Assembly (NCBI RefSeq): GCF_037996645.1
Contig: NZ_JBBMXV010000004.1
Coordinates: forward strand, 459,684 to 523,683
Length of the DNA stretch: 64,000 nt
Direction: 5' to 3'
Origin: Halalkalicoccus tibetensis
GTDB taxonomy: Archaea > Halobacteriota > Halobacteria > Halobacteriales > Halalkalicoccaceae
Shown: piece after piece, positions 1,612-2,089 of the stretch
How the letters are laid out: the number at the start of each line of letters is the position of its first letter
How positions within the stretch are numbered: the first letter of the stretch is position 1
Notes under the pieces: model-generated
Told to the model about the DNA's origin: nothing
Databases searched by the model: none
The model's input: only the letters and a program-made list of their open reading frames with translations
Program-made: the position numbers and the translations under genes

Positions 1612-2089
1612 ATGAGCGCCCTGATCGCGATCGACGGGTCGGACCCGGCACGGAAAGCCCTGGAGCACGCGTTCAGCGAGCACTCGGACGAGGAGCTGAC
1701 CGTCCTGCACGTCCTCAGCCCGACGGAGTCGGCGTCCATCGGCGAAGCGCGTATGTATGTCGACCGGGACGAGGTGATGGAGAACCAGCGCGAGCGCGCC
1801 GAAGAGCTGTTCGAGGAGGCCGAAGAGCTCGCGGCGACGCGCGGCGCGACGATCGAGACCGAAACGACCGTCGGGCGCCCCGACCGCGCGATCGTCGACT
1901 ACGCCCGGGACCACGACGTCGACCACGTGATCCTCGGGAGCCACGGCCGATCGGGCGTCTCGCGCGTGTTGCTCGGCAGCGTTCGAAAATCCACTGGATT
2001 TTCGAGCCAAGCAGAACGCGCCGCGTTCTGCTGACGTCGCCGAACCGGTCGTCAGGCGGGCGCCCGTCCCCGTCACCGTCGTCCGGTAG
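1612..2089 (+). pseudogene. Universal stress protein gene, C-terminus cut off by a 55-bp insert
   Basis: The reading frame from 1612 encodes a UspA-fold protein. It has the MSALIAIDGSDPA start and the nucleotide-binding G-x2-G-x9-G-S type motif (ILGSHGRSGVSRVLLGS) near residues 108-124. After GS the frame reads into unrelated residues and stops at 2034. The expected last strand (VAEPVVRRAPVPVTVVR and a stop at 2087-2089) is present downstream, shifted by one base. The cause is a 55-bp insertion at 1981-2035. The result is either a pseudogene or a shortened 140-residue protein lacking the last beta strand. The ATP-binding loop is retained, so partial function cannot be excluded. A TATA-like box sits 27 bases upstream. 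Confidence 0.85.
1981..2035. repeat. 55-bp twin-hairpin insertion
   Basis: Two perfect hairpins of the same geometry lie side by side. The first stem is tcgaaaatcc (1983-1992) pairing with ggattttcga (1996-2005) across a 3-base loop. The second is agcagaacgc (2010-2019) pairing with gcgttctgct (2023-2032), also with a 3-base loop. Four bases separate them. The element interrupts the universal stress gene exactly between the codons for GS and VAEP, shifts the frame and supplies the new stop. No transposase is encoded, so it would be a non-autonomous or REP-like element. I saw no second copy in the window. Confidence 0.7.

Follow-up and report, generated by a model that had tools for sequence, protein, structure and literature searches.

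Elements of the IS200/IS605 type insert 3′ of a short oligonucleotide, carry a similar right end of their own and leave the target unduplicated. For IS605-type elements, Dyall-Smith et al. (2011, PMC3119063) describe both a targeting oligonucleotide and insertion without target duplication. In the same work, the terminal-only PATEs of IS605-type transposons are palindromic sequences of about 52 bp, in which one palindrome is kept after deletion between two like ones; these also show no target duplication, and on their 5′ side is a target oligonucleotide of 4–6 bp. The small mobile repeats of Haloquadratum, SMR-A, are about 110 bp in length, with prominent terminal inverted repeats. SMR-A repeats are multi-copy, encode no transposase, do not duplicate the target, and insert in palindromes near the termini of IS605-type elements and PATEs; their mobiliser is unknown (PMC3119063).

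The CGTC-tagged REP sequences form head–head dimers, which consist of two short hairpins with CGTC/CGTT-type tags facing outward (Di Nocera et al., 2013, PMC3733652). Each stem is 8–9 bp, opens with two A/T pairs and is followed by a CCA tail. No transposase is linked to these dimers, there are intragenic copies, and some dimers lie inside palindromes. The survey lists CGTC repeats in bacterial phyla only. Y1 enzymes of archaea have been reported as IS200-type only, with no REP-type (PMC6006769), and a REP survey from 2025, archaea included, has no haloarchaeon among its strains (PMC12306157). The Rickettsia palindromic elements are bacterial repeats of about 150 bp that are found in unrelated protein genes, sometimes in frame, where they add residues (reviewed in PMC10969869).

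A short palindromic insert that shares properties with each of these systems is found in a universal stress (UspA-family) gene of the haloarchaeal window, i.e. the whole 64-kb stretch of DNA that was analysed. The features of the locus are as follows.

1612..2034, + strand: UspA-family gene as now read, 140 aa (open reading frame; Pfam PF00582, E=7.5e-28, residues 4–124)
1978..1981, + strand: target tetranucleotide AGCG, an instance of the family consensus RRCG; occurs once in empty sites, unduplicated (flank statistics; empty sites)
1982..2036 (equally 1981–2035 or 1983–2037), + strand: probable mobile twin-hairpin element, TTCG...TGACG (empty-site alignment with three orthologues; covariance-model match of 84.1 bits)
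1983..2005, + strand: hairpin 1, TCGAAAATCC-ACT-GGATTTTCGA, arms 1983–1992 and 1996–2005 (sequence read directly)
2006..2009, + strand: conserved linker GCCA (sequence and copy alignment)
2010..2032, + strand: hairpin 2, AGCAGAACGC-GCC-GCGTTCTGCT, arms 2010–2019 and 2023–2032 (sequence read directly)
2032..2036, + strand: conserved right end TGACG, with the CGTC tag on the other strand and the TGA stop at 2032–2034 (sequence and copy alignment)
2036..2089, + strand: severed UspA C-terminus, VAEPVVRRAPVPVTVVR and stop, intact in the next frame (sequence and orthologue alignment)

The nearest UspA relatives, at 69–72% protein identity, are in the sister-genus genomes G009, G007 and G008, and none of the three has the insert. 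Their empty sites read AGC-GTCGCCGA, followed by a like C-terminus (VAETVVRRSPCPVTVVR and stop). Alignment with these orthologues, the comparison suggested by a sequence-only reading of the locus for defining any target duplication, displays a clean gain of 55 bp and no duplication. The ends of the insert can slide by two bases because G/GT is common to both sides. The two hairpins are as that reading described them, with perfect 10-bp stems and 3-nt loops separated by 4 nt; both stems can reach 11 bp, leaving a 1-nt loop. The chance expectation of either hairpin pattern in 64 kb is none, and no further copies of either pattern are found within the window. Folded as a single strand, the insert has a z of −5.6 as DNA and −5.5 as RNA, and no shuffled sequence was equally stable. 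An Rfam search with the element matched no known RNA family.

At the translated amino acid level, the UspA product keeps the nucleotide-binding motif G-2X-G-9X-GS, and the insert begins directly after the last codon of this motif. The frame shift and added stop noted in the sequence-only reading are both present: the open reading frame ends at the element-borne TGA (2032–2034), and the last 17 residues of the 140-aa product are insert-derived. The 55-bp length shifts the frame and the TGA of the element ends the protein, with the last beta strand exchanged for 17 new residues. No damage is seen in the severed strand, which is read in the next frame, and therefore the insertion is probably recent, as was also proposed from the sequence; the empty sister-genus orthologues point the same way. 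The neighbouring genes encode a CBS-domain protein upstream (1007–1486) and a DUF7475 (PF24287) protein downstream (2190–2567).

When the region was compared with 98 relatives by blastn, twin hairpins of the same layout were found elsewhere. Eighteen aligned copies give the consensus CGTTCG...hairpin1...GCCAA...hairpin2...TGACG, and the family layout is RRCG^TTCG-hairpin1-GCCAA-hairpin2-TGACG, with copies mostly 51–61 bp in length. The stems covary: 93.5% of cells in the 18-copy alignment are paired, and 15 of 19 pairs show two-sided change. Doubly changed stem cells number 44, versus 9.1 ± 2.7 in shuffles and 4–9 in slid controls. Hairpin 2 is almost never seen without hairpin 1. The two hairpins travel as a unit, and the few lone second hairpins are decayed twins or chance occurrences.

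A covariance model (R1) built from the 18 copies has matches in 52 of 59 haloarchaeal genomes, with a maximum of 78 per genome, a count in which some copies appear on both strands. The genome of the window has 26 matches at E <= 1, which represent about a dozen distinct strong places. The sequence-only reading had likened the insert to a REP-type or MITE-type mobile palindrome, for which multiple scattered copies would speak, and had staked its case on two points, both of which came out in its favour: relatives have the site empty, and other copies occur in haloarchaea. In a phylum-wide sample of 60 genomes, all seven from the order of the window were matched, together with two of the 53 others, all weakly. 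These two genomes (G416 and G432, same phylum) have the sole extra-order matches, with E values of about 1e-5 to 1e-3, and represent either distant relatives or chance. A search with the exact pattern over 84,980 species yielded at least 80 loci. Among the matches listed all are from halophilic archaea, Halorubrum foremost, and one is labelled Actinarchaeum halophilum. The exact pattern gave no copies in viral contigs, and the best match in a plasmid collection is a single-hairpin stretch from Natrinema.

A second subtype is present in the genome of the window at four loci (G000:C1:22887, C2:404406, C3:51429 and C1:664262; L120, L119, L121 and L127). It reads TTTTGTCGCC-hairpin-TGCTAACC-hairpin-TGATG; hairpin 1 differs, while the second hairpin is of the same CCAGAACGC type. 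Another region of this genome, G000:C1:344484 (L122), is scored by the model and has a different structure, a cluster of long palindromes of the ATCACATCGAAGAGGTGGCC type.

The flanks distinguish target from element. In 83 non-redundant copies outside UspA genes, the left tetranucleotide is GACG in 31, GGCG in 22, AGCG in 8 and AACG in 5. The left flank is RRCG in 66 of the 83 and GRCG in 53, a preference somewhat favoured by the model itself, which contains eight left-flank columns, and by a boundary rule that sought C[GA], in which the C of CG was given in advance. About 94% of copies have GACG at the right end (CGTC on the other strand), with the right boundary uncertain by three bases in copies ending GACGACG. 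Where the left is not GACG (52 copies), the right is still GACG in 46, and left and right are the same in one only. The left tetranucleotide is target DNA and the right GACG moves with the element. Target-site duplication is ruled out, as the right GACG persists where the left differs and the empty sites carry the target once. The two ends of the element have just CGTY in common. Of the MITE or REP affinity suggested in the sequence-only reading, the REP type stands in kind; a classical MITE is ruled out by the lack of both target duplication and long terminal inverted repeats.

Many copies appear palindrome-enclosed, and general insertion into palindromes was also considered. Pairing between flanks has a mean of 4.98, versus 4.70 ± 0.15 in controls, and strong arms are found in 3 of 69 copies versus 0.4 expected; a second test gave p 0.29 against a same-locus control and p 0.02 against mispaired flanks. 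Over all copies the pairing is not clearly above controls, and therefore enclosure in palindromes is claimed for subsets only.

The sequence-only reading called for a transposase encoded elsewhere, and none is linked to the element. No Y1 transposase (Y1_Tnp) is found in the genome of the window or in several copy-rich genomes, and 31 of 36 genomes without Y1 still have model matches. A Y1 transposase as linked mobiliser was rejected, copy number being uncorrelated with Y1 (rho 0.18, p 0.17). In the loci examined there is no autonomous relative, or parent IS with the hairpin pair split around a gene. The enzyme may be encoded on other replicons or in other strains and act in trans, may have been lost, or may be of another kind.

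The insert is probably a copy of a non-autonomous, REP-like haloarchaeal mobile hairpin element, inserted cleanly and with a preference for the UspA site; movement is deduced from sequence comparison. The mobile unit would be the fixed hairpin1-GCCAA-hairpin2 pair, placed between the left target RRCG and the element-borne right GACG. A trans-acting single-strand transposase, perhaps HUH-type and IS200/IS605-like, would recognise the folded ends, cut the target 3′ of RRCG and join the element there, leaving the target unduplicated.

It is unlikely that the element is moved instead by a site-specific recombinase of the tyrosine type. An excised circle would have a TGACG-TTCG joint, and recombination of this joint with RRCG would also give no duplication. 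Such a pathway accords with the CG common to the left target and the right end, with the specificity of the target, and with a genome that has no Y1 transposase. However, the flanks do not have conserved paired recombinase-binding arms, and conserved paired hairpins without conserved outer arms appear better suited to single-strand systems.

In eight UspA genes or gene fragments, from five genomes, a copy sits at one shared codon (GS^VAE), a recurrence beyond the view of the sequence-only reading. These are the window gene and G000:C1:789031; G002:C1:2458628, C1:1294419 and C1:287029; G007:C2:967303; G008:C271:15033; and G058:C1:1447253. The inserts differ in length. Three otherwise intact UspA genes, in the window, at G002:C1:2458628 and in G058, are frame-shifted by the insert. 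The G008 gene (G008:C271, L278) is intact, with an in-frame insertion that adds 18 residues, keeps the last strand and has no stop. The remaining four hosts are either fragments or interrupted by stops and frameshifts. A scan of 392 genomes with a UspA-site pattern was swamped by chance matches, and true twin hairpins among the matches listed are from G000, G002, G007, G008 and G058 only. Elements also occur in tandem arrays (L044:1652-1718, L152, L157, L048), where one copy follows immediately on the terminal GACG of its neighbour or, in G002 UspA, the twin is extended by a third hairpin.

These UspA copies might all go back to a single old insertion that was inherited, or that gene conversion spread among paralogues, rather than to repeated targeting. 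The occurrence at one codon in all eight hosts and the AGCGTTCGA subtype of hairpin 1 common to six of them are in keeping with this, but a single origin is more improbable still than a recombinase. A maximum-likelihood tree was built from 59 UspA sequences, of which six carry the insert. The inserted genes are scattered in it; there are six label changes, at least four of which are forced by well-supported branches, with two long branches and one partial sequence among the inserted rows, whose exact placement is unsure. In addition, the closest relatives of the window gene are empty, hairpin 1 in G058 is different, and the host in G008 belongs to a very distant UspA subfamily. The UspA site has been struck independently several times, and since the tree forces at least four gains, insertion is site-preferring. 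The site is the centre of a short palindrome, CTCGGC-AGCGTC-GCCGAG, that encodes the conserved L-G-S-V-A-E motif, and perhaps the palindrome explains the preference. The site AGCG^TCGCC within it is favoured, so that UspA genes are struck repeatedly at one codon.

That the twin hairpin is kept for an RNA role, e.g. as a transcript 3′ end or stabiliser, with its spread secondary, is very improbable: the stable RNA fold (z −5.5), the stop codon supplied by the element and the similar roles proposed for bacterial REPs (PMC3733652) would fit, but copies are also found in broken UspA fragments (four of the eight hosts) and no T-run follows the window copy.

Compared with the described systems, the haloarchaeal family resembles the CGTC-tagged REP dimers (PMC3733652) in its two short hairpins with outward tags, the lack of a linked transposase, the intragenic copies and the presence of some copies inside palindromes. 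It differs in stem length, which is 9–11 bp, and its stems do not open with two A/T pairs: hairpin 2 has C-G, T-A or G-C as its second pair. As for the CCA tail, GCCA follows hairpin 1, and the sequence after hairpin 2, read on the strand of that hairpin, is TTGGC. The two tails merge into one linker of 4–5 nt, and the RRCG target rule and recurrent UspA insertions are further differences. With SMR-A (PMC3119063) the family shares haloarchaeal hosts, multiple copies, no encoded transposase and no target duplication; its unit of about 55 bp, without prominent terminal inverted repeats, sets it apart, a distinction drawn from the published description of SMR-A (HqIRS42/43/55). PATEs (PMC3119063) are similar in size, palindromic character, absence of target duplication and a 5′ target oligonucleotide comparable to RRCG, but the two hairpins of the family are unlike each other, and no parent transposon with these ends turned up. 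The family inserts 3′ of a short, specific oligonucleotide that is left unduplicated, as do IS200/IS605-derived elements, but there is no Y1 TnpA in the genome of the window and no parent IS with the same ends was found. The in-frame G008 insertion is similar in outcome to Rickettsia palindromic elements (PMC10969869), which, unlike the haloarchaeal copies, do not recur at one codon. The element is a REP-like non-autonomous mobile hairpin, known in kind, that does not fully fit any one named family in the open-licence literature searched; an earlier description in a subscription journal is possible. A stronger proposal, that of a haloarchaea-specific mobile hairpin that homes to one UspA codon and swaps the C-terminus by means of a non-Y1 single-strand enzyme, is doubtful, if somewhat less so than the recombinase.

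Bacterial CGTC-tagged REP dimers have no known mobiliser. The haloarchaeal family, in which the target is defined, empty sites are clear and one gene family is struck recurrently, offers a tractable system for asking what moves such hairpins. It also illustrates how small palindromes rewrite protein ends in archaea.

The surroundings of other copies vary. Many copies in Halorubrum-like genomes and in G027 lie in the loop formed by the long inverted arms of a larger repeat, AAAGGGGCAGCCGCGAGG...CCTCGCGGCTGGGGCTTT (L142, L141, L146, L330 and L371, Halorubrum-type; L041, L042 and L046, G027). This larger repeat may itself represent a second family, either mobile or structural. At three loci (L059:1989-2057, L074:1974-2042 and L081:1996-2062), the twin hairpins are about 100 bp upstream of an IS200-type tnpA, in the presumed left end of the element, which parallels the insertion of SMR-A. 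The L081 copy lies between the palindrome arms CCCCGCC/GGCGGGG.
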